This document shows positions 9,623-30,142 of a stretch of 40,001 bases of DNA, in pieces. Each line of letters opens with the position of its first letter. Positions within the stretch are counted from its first letter, which is position 1. The stretch comes from Polyangiaceae bacterium (lineage in GTDB: Bacteria; Myxococcota_A; Polyangia; Polyangiales; Polyangiaceae), in contig JADLFU010000132.1 of the NCBI GenBank assembly GCA_020849655.1, forward strand, positions 1-40,001. Reading direction: 5' to 3'. A program made the translations under genes and the position numbers. The notes under the pieces are model-generated. The model searched no databases and was not told where the DNA came from. It saw only the letters and a program-made list of their open reading frames with translations.

Positions 9623-9750
9623 GCCTCGGCGTCGGGCGCACGCCTTGCGCGCCCCGGCGAGCGCGGTGCGTCACGCGGCCGCCCGGCGTGAGAGATCTGC
9701 GAGACGGCGCGCAGGAGCGTCGCGCGGGGTGACGTCGATCAGGTGGACCA

Positions 9751-9768
9751 ATATGACGTCCGTCATAT
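9751..9768. promoter_or_regulatory. Palindromic activator/operator site upstream of nosZ
   Basis: ATATGACGTCCGTCATAT is a perfect 8-base inverted repeat around TC. Its core TGAC-N4-GTCA has the spacing of CRP/FNR-family sites (FixK/NnrR consensus TTGAC-N4-GTCAA). Its centre is about 143 bases before the start site predicted from the sigma-54 element, a usual distance for an enhancer-binding protein. Which regulator family binds is unresolved. Confidence 0.65.
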
Positions 9769-9848
9769 GGCGACGCCGCGAGGGGGCCCGTCCGGGCCTG
9801 GAACCCGGCGCGCGAGCGCCGACGGACGCCCCCCTGTGCGCCCTCGAC

Positions 9849-9864
9849 CTGCCGTCCGTCATGT
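9849..9864. promoter_or_regulatory. Second, half-degenerate copy of the nosZ upstream palindrome
   Basis: CTGCCGTCCGTCATGT shares the ten bases CGTCCGTCAT with the palindrome at 9751-9768 but has a weakened left half. The centre-to-centre distance is 96 bases, and it lies about 47 bases before the predicted transcription start. Confidence 0.4.
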
Positions 9865-9875
9865 GCCGACAGGCG

Positions 9876-9893
9876 TTGGCCCGACTCCTGCTT
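9876..9893 (+). promoter_or_regulatory. Predicted sigma-54 promoter of the nos operon
   Basis: TTGGCCCGACTCCTGCTT fits the -24/-12 consensus TTGGCACG-N4-TTGCT, with the invariant GG (9878-9879) and GC (9890-9891) exactly ten bases apart. Transcription would start near 9903, leaving a leader of about 38 bases before the nosZ ATG at 9941. GG-N10-GC alone is common in GC-rich DNA. The extended match and the upstream palindrome are what support the call. Confidence 0.55.
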
Positions 9894-9940
9894 GGGGCCC
9901 GCGAGAACCCGCCGCGACCGCGCGGGCCCAAGGACAACTC

Positions 9941-11926
9941 ATGCGCGCTCACACCATCGTCATTTCCACTCTGTTCGCAGTTGGCATCGCCGCGAGCGTC
10001 TTCGTCGGGTGCGAGAACAAGCACGAGGCGAAGGAGCAGAAGGCCAAGTCCCAGACGCTCGGCGCGTCCCAGGGCATCCAGGATCTGATGAAGGCCCGCG
10101 GCCTGTCGGAGGCCGACGTCGAGGCGGCGCTGAAGACCTATGTGCCGACTGGCAAGCTGGACGAGTACTACATCTTCGCGTCGGGCGGCCAGTCAGGCAA
10201 CGTCAACGTCATCGGCGTGCCGTCGATGCGCATGCTGAAGGTCATCGGCGTGTTCACGCCCGAGTCGTGGCAGGGCTGGGGGTTCGGCGGTGACAGCGAC
10301 AAGATCCTCGACGGCGGCAACCAGGGGACGCGCAAGATCCGCTGGGCGGACATGCACCACCCCAACCTCTCGGAGGCGAAGGGCGAGTACGACGGCAAGT
10401 ACCTCTTCGTCAACGACAAGGCCAACGCCCGCGTCGCGGTGGTCGATCTCTCCGACTTTCAGACCAAGCAGATCGTGGCCAACCCGCTCGCCGCCAGCGA
10501 TCACGGCGGCGCCTTCGTGACGCCCAACACCGAGTACGTGATCGAGACGAGCCAGTACCCGGCGCCGCTCGGCCGCGGCTACGCCCCGCTCGCAGAGTAC
10601 AAGGACAAGTACCGCGGCGTCGCCGTGTTCTGGAAGTTCGACCACGAGAAGGGCCGCATCGACCCGGCGAAGAGCTGGGCGATGGAGCTGCCGCCGTACA
10701 CCCAGGACCTCGCGGACGCCGGGAAGCTGGACTCGGACGGTTGGATGTACATCAACTCGTTCAACACCGAGCTCGCGGTGGGCGGAACGCTGGACGGCAA
10801 GCCTCCCATCGAGTCGGGCGCCAGCCAGAACGACATGGACTACCTCCACGTCATCAACTGGAAGAAGGCCGAGGAGCTCGTCAACGCCGGCAAGACCAAG
10901 ACCATCGCAGGCATGAGGGTGCTGATGATGGAGACGAGCGGCCCCGAGGGGGTGCTCACCCTGGTCGGCGAGCCGAAGAGCCCGCACGGCTGCGACGTGA
11001 CGCCGGACGGCAAGCACATCGTCGTCGGCGGCAAGCTCGACACCCACGCCACCATCTACGACGCCGCGAAGATCAAGGCGCTCGTCGAGCAGAAGAAGTT
11101 CGAGGGCAGGGATCCGTACGGCCTCGGCATCATGGCCTTCAAGGAGACGATCGCCGGGCAGGTCGAGATCGGCCTCGGGCCGCTCCACACGGTGTTCGAC
11201 GACAAGGGCAACGCGTACACGTCAGTGTTCATCGAGAGCACGGTCGCCAAGTGGTCGTACAAGGACTACAAGAAGCCCGTCGAGAAGCTGAAGGTGCACT
11301 ACAACATCGGCCACATCCTCTCGGCCGAGGGCGACACTGTCAGCCCCGACGGCAAGTACGTCGTCGCGATGAACAAGATGTCGATGGATCGGTTCCTCCC
11401 CGTGGGCCCGCTGTACCCGCAGAACTTCCAGCTCATCGACCTGTCGGGCGAGAAGATGCGTATGTTGATCGACATGCCGATGCCGAACTCGGAGCCCCAC
11501 TACTCGCAGATGATCAAGGCCGACAAGGTGAAGCCGCTCAAGACTTACAAACCCGGCACGAACGCGCACGGCGAGATCGACCCTGCGAAGGTGGAGGGCG
11601 GCAAGGAGCGCATCGTCCGCAACGGCCACAAGGTCGACGTGTACATGACCGCCATCCGCAGCCACTTCACGCCCGATCAGATCGAGGTCGAGGAGGGCGA
11701 CGAGGTGACGCTCCACATCACCAACCTGGAGACGGCGGAGGACCAGACCCACGGCTTCACGCTCGACATGCACAACATCAACGTGAGCCTCGAGCCCGGC
11801 AAGCACGAGAACATCTCGTTCAAGGCCGACGTGCCGGGCACCTTCCCGTTCTACTGCACGGAGTTCTGCTCGGCCCTCCACCTCGAGATGGCGGGCTACT
11901 TCCTCGTCAAGCCGAAGAAGCACTTA
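9941..11926 (+). CDS. nosZ: Nitrous oxide reductase, clade II, ending at an apparent UUA stop
   Basis: Reduces N2O to N2 in the periplasm, the last step of denitrification. It has a Sec/lipoprotein-type signal (lipobox VFVGC, Cys24) instead of a Tat signal, a seven-bladed propeller with CuZ ligands such as DMHH (137-140), and a cupredoxin domain with the CuA motif CTEFCSALHLEM (Cys639, Cys643, His647, Met650). The Sec-type signal and the gene context indicate clade II. The domain ends at KPKKH (residue 661), and the next in-frame codon is TTA (11924-11926), followed directly by the SD of the next gene (GGAG at 11927). Under the standard code the frame runs on to 12691 as 255 codons of out-of-frame nonsense over the neighbour. 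I therefore end it at TTA. SD AAGGA precedes the ATG. Confidence 0.93.
11924..11926 (+). other. TTA codon at the expected stop of nosZ
   Basis: The only in-frame TTA in nosZ. It lies 11 codons after the last CuA ligand and 10 bases before the next start codon, and GGAG, the next gene's Shine-Dalgarno, follows without a gap. See the finding on UUA termination. Confidence 0.8.
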
Positions 11927-11936
11927 GGAGCCGCCC

Positions 11937-12698
11937 ATGTCCAGCGCACCCGAGGTCACAGGAGAGGAGCTCACCGAGGGGGGGGAGGCGCCGGAGCGGG
12001 CGAGGCCGCGTCGAGTTCGGTTGCCGCTCGCCGCGGCGCCGGTCAAGGCCGAGGCCGCGCCGTGGAACTGGGCGCGCTGGCCCACCGTGCTGCTCGCGGT
12101 CGCCTCCGTGGCGCTGTTCGGCGCCTCGTTCTTCCAGAGCTGGTGGAAGTTCTGGCTGTACGCCCCACAGTACCCGAAGGGCCTCCGCCTCGAGATCGCG
12201 CTCACGGGCATGGGCGGCGACGTCCACGAGATCGATCTGCTGAACCACTACATCGGCATGAAGCACCTCGCCGAGGCCGCGGCGCTCGAGCGACAGCTGG
12301 CAGGCTGGGGCGTGGCGGCCGTGGCGGTGGTCACGCTGGCGCTCCTCGCCGGCGCAGGGAAGAAGCTCAACAAGCTCGTCGCCATCCCGGCGATCGCGTT
12401 CCCCATCGGGTTCCTCGCGGACAGCTTCTACTGGCTCTACTCCTACGGTCACAACCTCGATCCGCGCGCGCCCATCCGCCTCGCCGCGTTCACGCCGGAG
12501 ATGTACGGCAACGGCCAGATCGGTCAGTTCGAGACGTTCGCGCGGCCGGCGATGGGGTTCTGGCTGGCGATGGCGGGCGTGGCGTGCGCGCTCGTGGCGT
12601 CGTTCCTCCGGTCGCGGGTGTGCACGCACTGCACCGCGGCCGGCACGTGCGGCGCCGTGTGTCCTCGCGCGATGGTCTTGCCGGAGCGTGAGGGATGA
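11937..12698 (+). CDS. Nos-cluster integral membrane protein with C-terminal four-Cys motif
   Basis: 253 aa. Four hydrophobic segments are visible at about 47-66, 123-140, 147-166 and 205-223. Between the first and second lies YPKGLRLEIALTGMGGDV with LNHYIGM at 102-108, a pattern I recall from conserved membrane proteins in clade II nos clusters, where the slot next to nosZ is often called nosB. After the last helix the tail has Cys229, Cys232, Cys238 and Cys242 (C-x2-C-x5-C-x3-C), a possible metal site. The function is unknown, perhaps in copper or electron delivery. SD GGAG at 11927 directly follows the nosZ TTA. Its stop overlaps the nosD ATG (ATGA). Standard-code gene callers might drop it because the read-through nosZ frame covers it. 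Confidence 0.8.
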   Translation: MSSAPEVTGEELTEGGEAPERARPRRVRLPLAAAPVKAEAAPWNWARWPTVLLAVASVALFGASFFQSWWKFWLYAPQYPKGLRLEIALTGMGGDVHEIDLLNHYIGMKHLAEAAALERQLAGWGVAAVAVVTLALLAGAGKKLNKLVAIPAIAFPIGFLADSFYWLYSYGHNLDPRAPIRLAAFTPEMYGNGQIGQFETFARPAMGFWLAMAGVACALVASFLRSRVCTHCTAAGTCGAVCPRAMVLPEREG

Positions 12699-14011
12699 CC
12701 CGCTCGTCGGGCGCGCGCATGGCGGCGCTCTCTCTCTTCGCGCTCGCCCTCGGCGCGGCGCCCGCGCAGGGAGACACGCGCGCCACGGTCGCGCCTGGCC
12801 CGCGGGCCGGGCAGGTGCCGGCGGGCGCCGTCGTCGCGCGCTCGTTCGAGGAGCTGCAGGCGCTCGTCTCGGATCCGGCCGGTCCGGCGACGATCTCCGT
12901 GTCGGGGACGCTGCGCGGAGACCTCGTCGTGCGGCGCCCGGTGGCGATCGTGGGGCAGCCCGGCGCGGCGCTCGAGGGCACGGGCACGGGCACGGTGCTC
13001 CGCATCGACGCGAAGGACGTCCGCGTCGAGGATCTCGTCGTGCGGCGCTCGGGCCACCGCCACACCACGGAGGACGCGGGCGTCCACGCGACGGGCGAGC
13101 GCGTGCACCTGCGGCGCCTGCGGGTGGAGGAGACGCTGTTCGGCATCTCGCTCGCGGCCTGCAAGTCATGCGGGATCGAGGGCGCCCACGTGGTCGGCTA
13201 CGCGGACGACACCGAGCTGCGCGGCGACGGGGTGAAGCTCTGGGAGTCCGACGACTCGGTCGTGCGCGACTCGCTCCTCGAGCGCTCTCGAGATCTCGTG
13301 GTCTGGTACACGAAGCGCGCGCTCCTCGTGGGCAACACGGTCCGCCACAGCCGCTACGGCTCCCACTTCATGTACGCCCACGACGCGGTCGTGCGCGACA
13401 GCCGCATGGAGAGCAACGTCGTCGGCGTGTTCGTCATGTACAGCATGCGCGTGAAGATCGAGCACAACGTGCTCGCGGGGGCGCGCGGGGCCGCCGGCAT
13501 CGGCCTCGGGTTCAAGGACAGCGACGCCGTCGAGGTCAAGGGCAACTGGCTGGTCGCCAACACCGCCGGCGCCTACTTCGACAACACCCCCCGCGTGACG
13601 AACCAGCCCGTCCACTTCGACGACAACGTCGTCGCGCTGAACGAGGTGGGCCTCCGCTTGCATGGCTACGAGGACGGGCTGCACGTGCGACGAAATGACT
13701 TTCGAGAGAACGCCGTCCTGGTCGAGGTCGACGGCGGCGGTGACGCGCACAAGGTCGGCGTCCGCGGGAACCACTACTCCGACTACGAGGGCTACGATCT
13801 CGATCGCGACGGGGTGGGCGACGTGGCCTACGAGATGAAGACGCTCTCCCGTGACTTGACGGACGCCCGCCCGGCGCTGAAGTACTTCCAGGGGACGGCC
13901 GCGATGGGCGTCATCGACGCCGTCGCGCACGCGGTGCCGGTCTTCGCCGCGCGGCGGCTCTGGGTCGATCCGGCGCCGGCCTTCGGGCGGCTCCACCAGG
14001 AGGCTCCATGA
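12695..14011 (+). CDS. nosD: NosD, periplasmic copper-site maturation protein
   Basis: 438 aa with a Sec signal (about residues 1-26) and a right-handed parallel beta-helix of the NosD/CASH type. Typical rungs are visible, such as DGVKLWESDDSVVRDS, RHSRYGSHFMYAHDAVV and GIGLGFKDSDAVEVKGN. NosD acts with the NosFY ABC transporter to assemble the CuZ tetranuclear sulfide-bridged copper cluster of NosZ. Start and stop both overlap neighbours by ATGA, so the operon is translationally coupled. The length is normal. Confidence 0.93.
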   Translation: MTRSSGARMAALSLFALALGAAPAQGDTRATVAPGPRAGQVPAGAVVARSFEELQALVSDPAGPATISVSGTLRGDLVVRRPVAIVGQPGAALEGTGTGTVLRIDAKDVRVEDLVVRRSGHRHTTEDAGVHATGERVHLRRLRVEETLFGISLAACKSCGIEGAHVVGYADDTELRGDGVKLWESDDSVVRDSLLERSRDLVVWYTKRALLVGNTVRHSRYGSHFMYAHDAVVRDSRMESNVVGVFVMYSMRVKIEHNVLAGARGAAGIGLGFKDSDAVEVKGNWLVANTAGAYFDNTPRVTNQPVHFDDNVVALNEVGLRLHGYEDGLHVRRNDFRENAVLVEVDGGGDAHKVGVRGNHYSDYEGYDLDRDGVGDVAYEMKTLSRDLTDARPALKYFQGTAAMGVIDAVAHAVPVFAARRLWVDPAPAFGRLHQEAP

Positions 14012-14922
14012 TCACGGTCGCGCAGGTCGAGAAGCGCTTCGGGCGGGTGGTGGCGCTCGACGGCGTCTCTCTCTCCATCGACAAGGGAGAGCGCGTCGCG
14101 TTCGTCGGGACGAACGGCTCGGGCAAGACGACGCTGCTCCGCGCCATCCTCGGCCTCTTGCGCGTCGACGGGAAGATCACCGTCTGCGGCAGCGACGTCG
14201 GTCGCGAGCCCGAGATCGCGCTCCGCAGCGTCGCGTACATCCCCCAGATCGCGCCGCCGATCGAGGCGCCGGTCGGCGAGGTCGTCCGGGCCTCGGCCGC
14301 GCTCCGCGGGGTCGAGCCCTCGGCGATCGAGGCGCGGGCGCGCCGCCTCGGCCTCGATCTCGGCGCCTGCGCGCGCACGAGGTTCCGCGATCTGTCGGGC
14401 GGGATGAAGCAGAAGCTGCTCGGCGCGCTCGCGCTCGCGGCCGAGACGCCGATCCTCGTGTGCGACGAGCCCACCGCGAACCTCGACGGCGACGCGCGCG
14501 CCGCGTTCTTCGAGCAGCTGGCGGAGCGGCCGGCGTCGAGCGTCGTCATCCTCTGCTCGCATCGCCTCGAGGAGGTCCGGCAGATCGTGGGGCGCGTCGT
14601 CGAGCTGGCGGACGGGCGGATCGTCCGCGACGCGTCGCTGTCGGAGCTGCTGCGAGAGCTCCGATCGTTCCGCGTCGAGGTCGCGCTGACGGAGGCGGGC
14701 GCCGCCCTCGAGCCGACGCTCCTCGCGCTCGGGTTCTCGCGGTCGGGCCTCGCTCGGTTCGCGCTGCAGGTGGCGCAGGCCGAGAAGATCGAGCTGGTCA
14801 CGCGGCTGCTGCGCGACCACGGCGACGGCCTCGCGGATCTCTCGGTCGTCCCGATGGACGATCTCTCCTCCGTCCCCGGCAACGTGTCACCGCTCCGTCC
14901 GAAGCTCGAGGTGGTGGCGTGA
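14008..14922 (+). CDS. nosF: NosF, ABC transporter ATPase
   Basis: 304 aa ATPase. Walker A is GTNGSGKT (34-41), the signature is LSGGMKQK, and Walker B is ILVCDEP with Asp153 and Glu154. An accessory C-terminal region of about 90 residues follows, as in other NosF proteins. It pairs with NosY and NosD to energise NosZ copper-cluster assembly, probably by moving a sulfur species or a conformational signal across the membrane. Its ATG overlaps the nosD stop, and its TGA overlaps the GTG of nosL. Confidence 0.93.
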   Translation: MITVAQVEKRFGRVVALDGVSLSIDKGERVAFVGTNGSGKTTLLRAILGLLRVDGKITVCGSDVGREPEIALRSVAYIPQIAPPIEAPVGEVVRASAALRGVEPSAIEARARRLGLDLGACARTRFRDLSGGMKQKLLGALALAAETPILVCDEPTANLDGDARAAFFEQLAERPASSVVILCSHRLEEVRQIVGRVVELADGRIVRDASLSELLRELRSFRVEVALTEAGAALEPTLLALGFSRSGLARFALQVAQAEKIELVTRLLRDHGDGLADLSVVPMDDLSSVPGNVSPLRPKLEVVA

Positions 14923-15323
14923 CCCGGCGCGCGCTCGCGGCGGTCCTCGGCGTCGCGCTCCTCGCGCTCTCTTGCGCGCGCTCGGACGCCCCTGCCGACC
15001 CGGTCTGGGGCAAGGAGCCGTGCGCCCACTGCGCGATGCTCGTCAGCGACAAGGCGCACGCAGCCCAGGCGCTCCACGACGGCGACCGCAGGTACTTCGA
15101 CGACATCGGCTGCATGATCCTGTGGCTCGAGAAGAACAAGGCCAACGGTGACCGCGCCTGGGTCCGCGACGCCGACGCGGGCGGCTGGGTCGACGCGCGC
15201 TCGTCCCGCTACGCCGACGGCGCGAAGACGCCGATGGACTTCGGGCTCCAGGCGAAGCGGGGCGGACCGCTCGGCTGGGACGAGGCGCGCACCCGCGCGC
15301 TCGCCAAGGAGAGGAATCCATGA
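14919..15323 (+). CDS. nosL: NosL, copper-chaperone lipoprotein
   Basis: 134 aa lipoprotein with lipobox Cys19 (ALLALSC). The Cu(I)-binding motif CAHCAM places Cys35, Cys38 and Met40 just after the anchor, and YFDDIGCMILWL matches the NosL core fold. NosL hands copper to the NosDFY machinery at the outer face of a membrane. I chose the GTG at 14919, overlapping the nosF stop, because it gives an immediate signal peptide. A longer in-frame open frame begins inside nosF but lacks one. Its stop overlaps the nosY ATG. Confidence 0.92.
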   Translation: MTRRALAAVLGVALLALSCARSDAPADPVWGKEPCAHCAMLVSDKAHAAQALHDGDRRYFDDIGCMILWLEKNKANGDRAWVRDADAGGWVDARSSRYADGAKTPMDFGLQAKRGGPLGWDEARTRALAKERNP

Positions 15324-16174
15324 GCACCACGCAAATCATCAGCCCCGCGCGCGTCATGCTGCGCCTGGAGCTCGCGGACGCGCTGCGCTCCCGCTGGGCC
15401 CTCTTCACCGGGGGCGTGTACGCGGTCGTGTTCGGGTTGTTCATATGGCTTGGGTTGCGGGAGAGCACTGTGCTCGGCTTCACCGGGCTGTCGCGGGTCA
15501 TCCTCAACGTCTCCAACGCGGTCGTCCTCGCGGTGCCGCTCGTGGCGCTGGTCGCGACCAGCCAGACGGTCGTGCGGGCGCGGCACAGCGGGTTCTTCGA
15601 GCTGATGCTGACCCAGCCGGTGCGCCGCTCCGACTGGTTCTACGGCGCCGTCCTCTCCAGGCTGGTGGTCGTCATCGGTCCGCTCGTCGCGCTCCTGCTC
15701 CTGGCGTGGACCGCGGGGCTCGCGGCGGGCAGGGGAGACGCGGCGCTCGTCAGCGTGCTGTTGCGCAGCCTCGCGGTGACAGTGTCGCTCGCGTGGGCCT
15801 TCCTCGGCGTCGGCTTCTACATCTCGACCGTCGCGCGCACGGCCGAGCGCGCGACGGTGCTCGCGCTGCTCGCCTGGCTGACGGCGAGCGCGCTGCACGA
15901 CTTTGCGCTCATCGGTGTGCTGTTGAAGTGGAAGCTCCCGCCGATGACGGTGTTTGGGCTCGCCGCCGCCAACCCCGTCGAGGCGGCGCGCATCGCCATC
16001 CTCGGCGCCATCGATCCAGAGCTCTCGGTGCTCGGCCCCGTGGGGTTCTGGCTCGCGAACACCCTCGGGCCGCGGGGCGCTGTCGCGGTGGGCGTCCTCT
16101 GGCCGCTCGCGCTCGGCACGCTCGCGCTGCACCGCGCCGAGCGCCGCCTCTCGGGCTCGGACCTCGTGGGCTGA
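15320..16174 (+). CDS. nosY: NosY, ABC-2 type permease
   Basis: 284 aa hydrophobic protein with about six transmembrane helices, for example residues 31-48 and 60-80 and the Leu/Ala-rich segments after VVVIGPLVALLLLAW. It is a typical ABC-2 permease and the membrane partner of NosF. The motif LTQPVRRSDWFYG in the second cytoplasmic loop is characteristic of these permeases. Its ATG overlaps the nosL stop. The sequence near 15774-15787 carries one copy of a short motif that also occurs elsewhere in the window (see findings). Confidence 0.92.
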   Translation: MSTTQIISPARVMLRLELADALRSRWALFTGGVYAVVFGLFIWLGLRESTVLGFTGLSRVILNVSNAVVLAVPLVALVATSQTVVRARHSGFFELMLTQPVRRSDWFYGAVLSRLVVVIGPLVALLLLAWTAGLAAGRGDAALVSVLLRSLAVTVSLAWAFLGVGFYISTVARTAERATVLALLAWLTASALHDFALIGVLLKWKLPPMTVFGLAAANPVEAARIAILGAIDPELSVLGPVGFWLANTLGPRGAVAVGVLWPLALGTLALHRAERRLSGSDLVG

Positions 16175-20430: not shown

Positions 20431-21687
20431 TCAGGGCGCGACGCAGCCGTTCGGCACCGCGTTGTCCGCGGGCGCGAGCGAGAGGATGTAGTGCGCGATG
20501 TCGGTCGCGTCGCCCTCGGTGAGCCCGGCGAACCCGGCCTTGCCCGCGGGCATCGGCGGGCAGATGTTGCCGCCGGTCTTGTCCTTGCCCTCCTTCAGCG
20601 CCTTGACGACGTCGGCGACCGTCCACCCCGCGAGGCCCGTCGCGTGCGGCGTGAGGTTGGCCGAGTAGATCGTGGCGGGGAACGGCGGCGACGGCAGCCC
20701 GAGCTGGTACGAGACGCCGCCCTGGAACGCCTTCGACACGTCGATCTCGGGCCCGGCGCCCGGCGCGTTGTGCTTCGTGTGGCACTCGAGGCACGCGCCC
20801 GCCTCGGCCGCGAGGTAGCGCCCGCGCGTCGCCGCCGGCACGTCGGCGTAGGTGCTCGGAGGCGTCGGCAGCGTCGACGGAGCGATCGAGGGCGCCGGCG
20901 CCGGGATGTTGTCCCAGGGCGGCTCGTGCGCGGGCAGCGTGTTGTCGACGCCGGGCACCGTGCGCAGGTAGGCCACGATGGCGTCGGCGTCCTCGGGCTT
21001 CATGTTGTGGAACTGGTAGTAGGGCATCACGGCCGACAGCGCCTTGCCGTCGGGCCGCACGCCGTTCAGCATCATGTCCTTGACCTGCTGGTCCGTGCGG
21101 GTCGAGAGGCCGGTCGCGTGGTTCGTGAGGTTGCGGGTCGAGAGGCACCCGAAGCCCGCCTTCGTCGGGTCGGCGTCGATGAAGCACGGGACTCCTGACA
21201 GCCACTTGCTCATGTCCGGGGCGCCCGTCTTGTCGCGCGGCGTGTGGCAGTCGCCGCACGCGAGCACGGCCTTCACGAGGTACTCTCCGCGCGCCACCTG
21301 CGGGCTCGCGCCCCCGCCGCCCGCAGCGCCTGCGGCGCCCGCGGAAGATCCGCCCGCGCCCGCCGAGGAGCCGCCCGCGCCCGCCGAGGAGCCACCCGCG
21401 CCCGCCGAGGAGCCACCCGCGCCCGCCGCCGCGCCGCCCGCTCCTGCGGCCGTGCCGCCCGCGCCCGCGGCCTTGCCGCCTGCGCCCGCGACGCTCCCGC
21501 CGGTGCCCGCCGTCGCCTTGCCCGCGGCGCCCGCCGAGGCGCCAGCGCTTCCGCCGGACGTCGACCCGCCGCTGCTCGTCCCGGCCGCCCCCGCGGCGAG
21601 GTCCTCATCGTCGTCGGAGCACCCCGCCACCGCCGCCGCACACACCATCGGGATCGCCCACAGGTACATCCATCGAGTCGTGTTCAT
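20431..21687 (-). CDS. Dihaem cytochrome c lipoprotein with Gly/Ala-rich spacer
   Basis: 418 aa. Lipobox VAGC (Cys23), then a Gly/Ala/Ser spacer (about 30-128) with four tandem GAGGSSA units. Two cytochrome c domains follow, with haem motifs CGDCH (144-148) and CLECH (about 288). Met-containing segments AVMPYYQFH and CPPMPAGKAGF are probable axial ligand regions. The repeated NLTNHATGL and NLTPHATGL segments mark the two domains as duplicates. They resemble the cytochrome subunits that serve periplasmic alcohol/aldehyde dehydrogenases, but no dehydrogenase is adjacent. It lies downstream of another dihaem cytochrome and has a strong SD (GGAGGAG). An FNR-like box sits just upstream. Confidence 0.85.
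   Translation of the reverse strand: MNTTRWMYLWAIPMVCAAAVAGCSDDDEDLAAGAAGTSSGGSTSGGSAGASAGAAGKATAGTGGSVAGAGGKAAGAGGTAAGAGGAAAGAGGSSAGAGGSSAGAGGSSAGAGGSSAGAAGAAGGGGASPQVARGEYLVKAVLACGDCHTPRDKTGAPDMSKWLSGVPCFIDADPTKAGFGCLSTRNLTNHATGLSTRTDQQVKDMMLNGVRPDGKALSAVMPYYQFHNMKPEDADAIVAYLRTVPGVDNTLPAHEPPWDNIPAPAPSIAPSTLPTPPSTYADVPAATRGRYLAAEAGACLECHTKHNAPGAGPEIDVSKAFQGGVSYQLGLPSPPFPATIYSANLTPHATGLAGWTVADVVKALKEGKDKTGGNICPPMPAGKAGFAGLTEGDATDIAHYILSLAPADNAVPNGCVAP
21344..21427. repeat. Four 21-base tandem repeats coding for GAGGSSA
   Basis: Four near-identical 21-base units, each of the form GAGGAGCC-rCCCGCGCCCGCC on the plus strand, encode the spacer of the dihaem cytochrome in frame. Units two to four differ at one position and the first is more diverged. 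The number of units is likely to vary between strains by slippage. Confidence 0.85.
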
Positions 21688-21701: not shown

Positions 21702-21715
21702 TTGACCGAGGTCAA
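21702..21715. promoter_or_regulatory. FNR/FixK-like palindrome upstream of dihaem cytochrome
   Basis: TTGACCGAGGTCAA matches the FixK/NnrR-type consensus TTGAC-N4-GTCAA exactly in both half-sites. It lies 15-28 bases before the cytochrome ATG (21687), just upstream of its SD. This is close for a classical activator site, so repression or a longer transcript cannot be excluded. Confidence 0.55.
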
Positions 21716-29640: not shown

Positions 29641-29728
29641 GCTGCGCAATCCGCGCGCGCCGTTCTGCAATCAGGCGGAAAGATCAAGCAAATTCGACGA
29701 TGGCACGCTCCTCGCTTCTGCCGGCGTC

Positions 29729-30142
29729 ATGGATATCCAGGTGACGTTCCCGGGGGGCAAGCATGTGGACGCGACGTTCGGTGGGTTCACCGTGCGGACC
29801 GATCAGTCCGTCGCCCACGGCGGCGACGGGAGCGCGCCCGAGCCGTTCGATCTGTTCCTCGCCTCGCTCGCGACGTGCGCGGGGGCGTACGCCCTCGGCT
29901 TCTGTCAGGCGCGCGGGCTCTCGACCGACGGGCTCTCGATCGTCCAGCGCGACGCGCGCGACGCGGACGGCAAGATCGTGTCGATCGAGGTCGAGCTCAC
30001 GCTGCCGCCCGGGTTCCCCGAGAAGTACCGCGCGGCGATCCAGCGCACCGTCGAGGGCTGCAAGGTCAAGAAGACGGTGCAGGCGCCGCCGGAGCTGCGC
30101 GTGACGGTCGTCGCGGAGGCTGCGTCGGCCGAGCTCTCCTGA
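29729..30142 (+). CDS. OsmC/Ohr-family thiol peroxidase-like protein
   Basis: 137 aa OsmC-like fold. Two conserved Cys expected for the family are present: Cys50 in LASLATCAGAYA and Cys111 in VEGCKVKKT. An additional Cys59 lies nearby. OsmC and Ohr proteins reduce organic hydroperoxides in the cytoplasm. The pattern is closer to the general OsmC/YhfA group than to Ohr. An AT-richer patch (29680-29700) upstream may be its promoter, but no clear -35/-10 can be named. It ends eight bases before the convergent PspA gene. Confidence 0.87.
   Translation: MDIQVTFPGGKHVDATFGGFTVRTDQSVAHGGDGSAPEPFDLFLASLATCAGAYALGFCQARGLSTDGLSIVQRDARDADGKIVSIEVELTLPPGFPEKYRAAIQRTVEGCKVKKTVQAPPELRVTVVAEAASAELS

Follow-up and report, generated by a model that had tools for sequence, protein, structure and literature searches.

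A predicted sigma-54 promoter overlaid with CRP/FNR-type operators upstream of nosZ in a member of the Polyangiaceae

Introduction

Which regulatory system turns on the nos operon of this uncultured Polyangiaceae bacterium? NosZ is the main known enzyme removing the greenhouse gas N2O, and little is known about the regulation of clade II nos operons except in a few species. The first-pass annotation had proposed a sigma-54 promoter with an upstream palindrome; a search of the open literature, with most subscription journals outside its range, found no published sigma-54-dependent nos operon. Judging from the sequence comparisons described here, the promoter carries elements of both the usual FNR-type wiring and the unusual sigma-54 wiring. 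We consider it rather probable that the sigma-54 nos promoter was inherited and that CRP/FNR-family operators came to overlay it in a lineage without the two-component system that is linked to nosZ in some of its relatives.

The nos operon and its promoter region

The window, i.e., the whole 40,001-nucleotide stretch analyzed here, represents contig C132 of a 6.56-Mb genome that is 97% complete. Its NosZ scores 838 bits against the NCBIfam model TIGR04246 (Sec-dependent, clade II; cut-off 625) and has its relatives in Polyangiaceae and other Myxococcota. The start codon is the ATG at 9941, preceded by an AAGGA sequence (Table 1). The natural C terminus of NosZ, near 11936, has no stop codon, and the frame remains open to 12691, for about 250 further residues; this extension (11937 to 12691) crosses the next ORF in a different frame. 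An extended frame of 919 aa is also found in another species of the genus (L100), and the nearer relatives stop at 661 to 669 aa.

The putative sigma-54 element, TTGGCCCGACTCCTGCTT, has GG at 9878-9879 and GC at 9890-9891 with ten bases between them, which agrees with the GG-N10-GC spacing and most of the consensus that the first-pass annotation had read here. It differs from the consensus TTGGCACG-N4-TTGCTT at two positions, and its -12 part reads CTGC instead of TTGC. Candidate sites were scored against this consensus with GG and GC fixed (maximum, 28). A score at least as high as that of the window element is reached in 6 of 20,000 dinucleotide shuffles of the 110 bp before nosZ and in none of 2,000 shuffles over 350 bp. 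The element lies 65 bp from the nosZ ATG. Another sigma-54-like match, ATGGCACGCTCCTCGCTT, with a score of 25, is seen at window position 29700, 29 bp before the ORF at 29729-30142. The genome encodes rpoN and approximately 36 convincing enhancer-binding proteins; the first-pass annotation had noted that myxobacteria have many. No sigma-54 regulator gene was found inside the window.

Both palindromes lie where that annotation had placed them. The upstream one (operator 1), ATATGACG-TC-CGTCATAT, is centered at 9759.5, 143.5 bp before the inferred start at 9903; described earlier as a perfect 18-base palindrome, it strictly consists of two perfect 8-bp arms flanking a nonpalindromic TC. The weaker copy (operator 2) is centered at 9855.5, 47.5 bp before the same start. 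Palindromes of the 8+2+8 form are as frequent in the window, at 72% GC, as in its shuffles (4 observed versus 4.5 expected), and those with at least five A/T per arm do not occur in 20 shuffles.

Table 1. Features of the nos promoter region and nos operon in the window
Feature	Position	Strand	Basis or remark
Possible degenerate operator, TGACGTCGATCA	9730-9741		Third, poorer copy with one mismatch; may be chance
Palindrome TGAC-N4-GTCA, predicted CRP/FNR (HcpR-like) operator 1	9751-9768		Published HcpR motif TTGACnnnnGTCAA (PMC1274295)
Weaker predicted operator 2, TGCCGTCCGTCA	9850-9861		One mismatch to TGAC-N4-GTCA
Sigma-54-type promoter element (-24/-12), inferred start near 9903	9876-9893	+	GG-N10-GC, score 24/28
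AAGGA ribosome-binding sequence	9930-9934	+	Sequence
nosZ, Sec-dependent clade II nitrous-oxide reductase	9941-11936	+	TIGR04246
Second ORF of the nos operon, membrane protein without known family	11937-12698	+	Overlapped by the extended nosZ frame
nosD	12695-14011	+	PF05048 (NosD)
nosF-like ABC ATPase	14008-14922	+	PF00005
nosY-like ABC permease	15320-16174	+	PF12679

Sigma-54 elements and linked two-component systems in relatives

The comparison set consisted of 32 nonidentical nosZ upstream regions from Polyangiales, in which a score of at least 22 defined a strong sigma-54 site. Such sites are found at the consensus spacer in 15 of the 32 regions (shuffle expectation, 0.63 +/- 0.76) and in 0 to 2 regions at seven other spacers; these regions are partly nonindependent, as L076/L094 and L062/L063 form close pairs, and the spacer control has the same dependence. 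In most regions that have one, the element is located 48 to 80 bp before the nosZ ATG. Sigma-54-like elements that would leave an inferred leader of only 3 to 4 bases are seen at nosZ of L087 and L082 and at L024 near 6670-6653. In the NosZ tree, the window falls with L100, L096, L091, and L084, which are mostly of the sigma-54 type; the larger group is moderately supported. In the nosZ promoter of L100, neither a good sigma-54 site nor a clear operator was found. That neither element is clearly conserved in this other species of the genus is the main weakness of the interpretation offered here.

An NtrC-family response regulator is encoded 1.2 to 3.0 kb upstream of nosZ in L091, L085, L099, and L097, with a histidine kinase gene between it and nosZ and both genes pointing away from nosZ. 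These regulators combine a receiver with a sigma-54 AAA+ domain, and two of the three proteins scanned also have a Fis-type helix-turn-helix. In the kinase of L071/L085, HisKA and HATPase domains were recognized, and PAS was matched weakly. A more distant regulator/kinase pair (41%) is located 4 to 6 kb away in L090, and a nos-linked response regulator in L084 (8320-9147; the same as in L074) consists of a receiver and a C-terminal part without the AAA+ domain. The nosZ promoters of these relatives have the repeat CTCTC-N6-GAGAG, which is found, over all regions, at 9 sites in 6 nosZ promoters and at 0 to 3 sites with other spacers, a count that serves as a check and not as an independent discovery, the repeat having first been spotted by eye in the same sequences. 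This repeat, rather than TGAC-N4-GTCA, is the likely enhancer in the relatives. The window nosZ promoter has no CTCTC-N6-GAGAG. Among the enhancer-binding protein loci compared elsewhere in the window genome, none is an ortholog of the linked response regulator (best identity, 43%), and this possibility was rejected.

The footprint in the relatives, its spacer specificity, and the linked NtrC-type regulators and kinases back the sigma-54 promoter proposed in the first-pass annotation. They support sigma-54 control of nos that would reach beyond the window genome.

Two types of nosZ promoters

The same kind of palindrome is also found before nosZ in relatives, 65 to 110 bp upstream of the ATG. 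Among the 32 regions, the interval from 150 to 50 bp before nosZ contains TGAC-N4-GTCA exactly in 7 regions and with at most one mismatch in 11; control spacers give no exact match and 0 to 2 within one mismatch. The sigma-54 element and the operator are seldom seen together. In 37 regions, both are found in 2, the sigma-54 element only in 16, the operator only in 11, and neither in 8 (Fisher P = 0.005, uncorrected for kinship, with lists compiled by us in which L051 and L054, whose sigma-54 matches are at unlikely positions, were entered as operator only). In 6 of the 11 operator-only promoters, a -10-like hexamer NANNNT is found exactly 30 bases from the operator center. This spacing is the one expected of a class II CRP/FNR activator working with a sigma-70 promoter. 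Each of the other offsets, of 41 in total, yields the hexamer in no more than one of the 11. The resulting P of about 1e-4 counts a sister pair once and is corrected for offsets, and the offset was noticed and then tested on the same sequences.

These operator-only promoters bring up the strongest alternative, that the window promoter is an ordinary CRP/FNR-activated sigma-70 promoter, in which operator 2 would serve as the class II site, the sigma-54 match being an unused relic of the ancestral promoter. In its favor are the CRP/FNR type of the operator, the 11 relatives with FNR-only nosZ promoters of class II architecture, and the missing linked two-component system. However, neither the window nor L092 has a -10 hexamer 30 to 35 bases after the operator center, where the window reads CTCCTG; the sigma-54 element, with its score of 24, is among the best of the nosZ promoter set and not decayed; and the distance from the operator to the inferred sigma-54 start, 47.5 bp in the window and 48.5 bp in L092, is equal within 1 bp. 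We regard this alternative as rather unlikely.

The palindrome as a probable CRP/FNR-family operator

The extended palindrome TATGAC-N4-GTCATA has only 2 sites in the 6.56-Mb genome (control, 0). ATGACG-N2-CGTCAT likewise has exactly 2, in the window nos promoter and before an operon for type II DMSO-reductase-family subunits (the C28 operon), which is preceded by the exact site and two one-mismatch copies. The shorter pattern WTGAC-N4-GTCAW is found at 15 sites versus 2 for the reversed control pattern, and some of the 15 may have arisen by chance, several being inside or beside genes without a respiratory link. Other sites precede coxBA (COX2 with cytochrome c, followed by COX1), a COX15/CtaA gene, and, in the window itself, the cytochrome c gene at 20431-21687 (minus strand); the last of these sites, the CRP/FNR-type TTGACCGAGGTCAA at 21702-21715, is about 15 bp upstream of its gene. 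A reading of the C28 operon as nar was rejected: it belongs to the type II DMSO-reductase family but scores far below the narG and other cut-offs. At L024, around 6790-6730 on the minus strand, a further palindrome, TGTGAA-N9-TTCACA (with GAATGTGCATTC inside), lies in the interval that separates the triple operator from the type II DMSO-reductase-family operon.

TGAC-N4-GTCA is also found at the start of 2 of the 4 CRP/FNR genes in the genome. The proteins of L142 and L143 have CRP/FNR domains by Pfam, and their recognition helices, read by eye, are V-E-T-T-I-R and P-E-T-L-S-R, respectively, i.e., E181/R185 with a non-Arg residue at 180. NCBIfam gives only weak, below-cut-off matches, and we call the regulator HcpR-like. 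From the sites at respiratory and CRP/FNR genes and the resemblance to the published HcpR motif, we conclude that the nos palindrome is a predicted CRP/FNR-family operator. A NorR site (GT-N7-AC) was rejected, the half-sites being in the opposite orientation.

The first-pass annotation had implied that the palindromes are enhancers for a sigma-54 activator. In favor of this, their positions relative to a sigma-54 promoter are -143 and -47, and the C28 operon, with its three copies, has a sigma-54 match of its own, if a modest one (25 of 2,000 shuffles). However, this palindrome is also found before coxBA, ctaA, and the cytochrome c gene, where no convincing sigma-54 site was found, as well as before CRP/FNR genes and sigma-70-like nosZ promoters, and the relatives with a linked sigma-54 regulator have a different repeat. 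The sigma-54 promoter of that proposal is retained; the enhancer role appears improbable, as the palindrome behaves like a CRP/FNR-family operator both here and in the relatives. That both matches arose by chance in a GC-rich promoter would fit the promoter of L100, which keeps neither clearly, and the abundance of 8+2+8 palindromes as such, but is highly implausible given the spacer-specific enrichment of both motifs over genomes and the respiratory genes downstream of operator sites.

Proposed regulation

In the preferred reading, an inherited sigma-54 promoter with CRP/FNR-family operators on top of it, the nos operon would be transcribed from the element before nosZ, which this Polyangiaceae clade probably inherited from its ancestor. 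In the relatives, this promoter is probably driven by the linked NtrC-family response regulator acting on CTCTC-N6-GAGAG. In the window genome, where that regulator pair is absent and the two predicted HcpR-like operators are present, a CRP/FNR-family respiratory regulator would couple nos to anoxia or nitrogen oxides. The sequence elements and their conservation, the linked system of the relatives, and the spread of the operator in the genome are the observations on which this builds; operator occupancy, the direction of regulation, the signal, and the activator are what we infer. The regulator could modulate the sigma-54 complex, with any of the approximately 36 other enhancer-binding proteins as its partner, or it could act via a weak overlapping sigma-70 start. 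CRP represses at some sigma-54 promoters, and repression of the sigma-54 complex by the CRP/FNR protein would be a third option. Activation of sigma-54 polymerase by a CRP/FNR protein alone is not known. A more specific scenario, in which the clade II N2O reductase of Polyangiaceae is under sigma-54 and a dedicated NtrC-family two-component system and was captured, in the lineage of the window, by an FNR/HcpR-type regulator that contacts the sigma-54 complex directly from the operator at about -48, is less likely than not.

If a sigma-54 promoter with a linked kinase and response regulator does control nos, some soil and wastewater bacteria would turn on N2O reduction by a dedicated signal, separately from the other steps of denitrification. 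Close relatives with different promoter types also offer a natural series in which to follow the rewiring of a respiratory operon.

Comparison with known systems

In Paracoccus, the NtrC-family two-component system NtrYX affects N2O reduction, and the nosZ transcript is unchanged in the mutant; the parts of that report available to us describe neither a linked system nor a sigma-54 nos promoter (PMC9409073). CRP/FNR-type control of nos has been reported in Bradyrhizobium (PMC6710368) and, according to the accessible part of the source, proposed for Nitrosophilus (PMC11539149). The nos promoters controlled by NnrR, FixK2, DNR, and other CRP/FNR proteins share with the window and the FNR-only relatives a CRP/FNR-type operator near the promoter, but the window has a predicted sigma-54 element in place of the -10 hexamer.

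NorR is a one-component NO sensor that binds GT-(N7)-AC. The NorR/NO reductase system resembles the one described here in placing a nitrogen-oxide reductase operon under sigma-54 and an NtrC-family activator, whereas the relatives have a response regulator with a receiver domain, a kinase, a likely site of the form CTCTC-N6-GAGAG, and nosZ as the target.

The closest parallel to the operator itself is in the regulons of HcpR, a CRP/FNR-family protein of deltaproteobacteria, including Geobacter, which has the operator TTGACnnnnGTCAA (Rodionov 2005, PMC1274295). Members of the HcpR family have Pro or Ser in place of R180, and their targets include the nar operon (PMC1274295). Here, the operator is ATGACnnnnGTCAT, and the protein of L143 has Pro at position 180, as judged by eye. 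The differences are that the first operator base is A and not T, that nos, coxBA, and ctaA are the apparent targets, and that the operators seem to be overlaid on a sigma-54 promoter.
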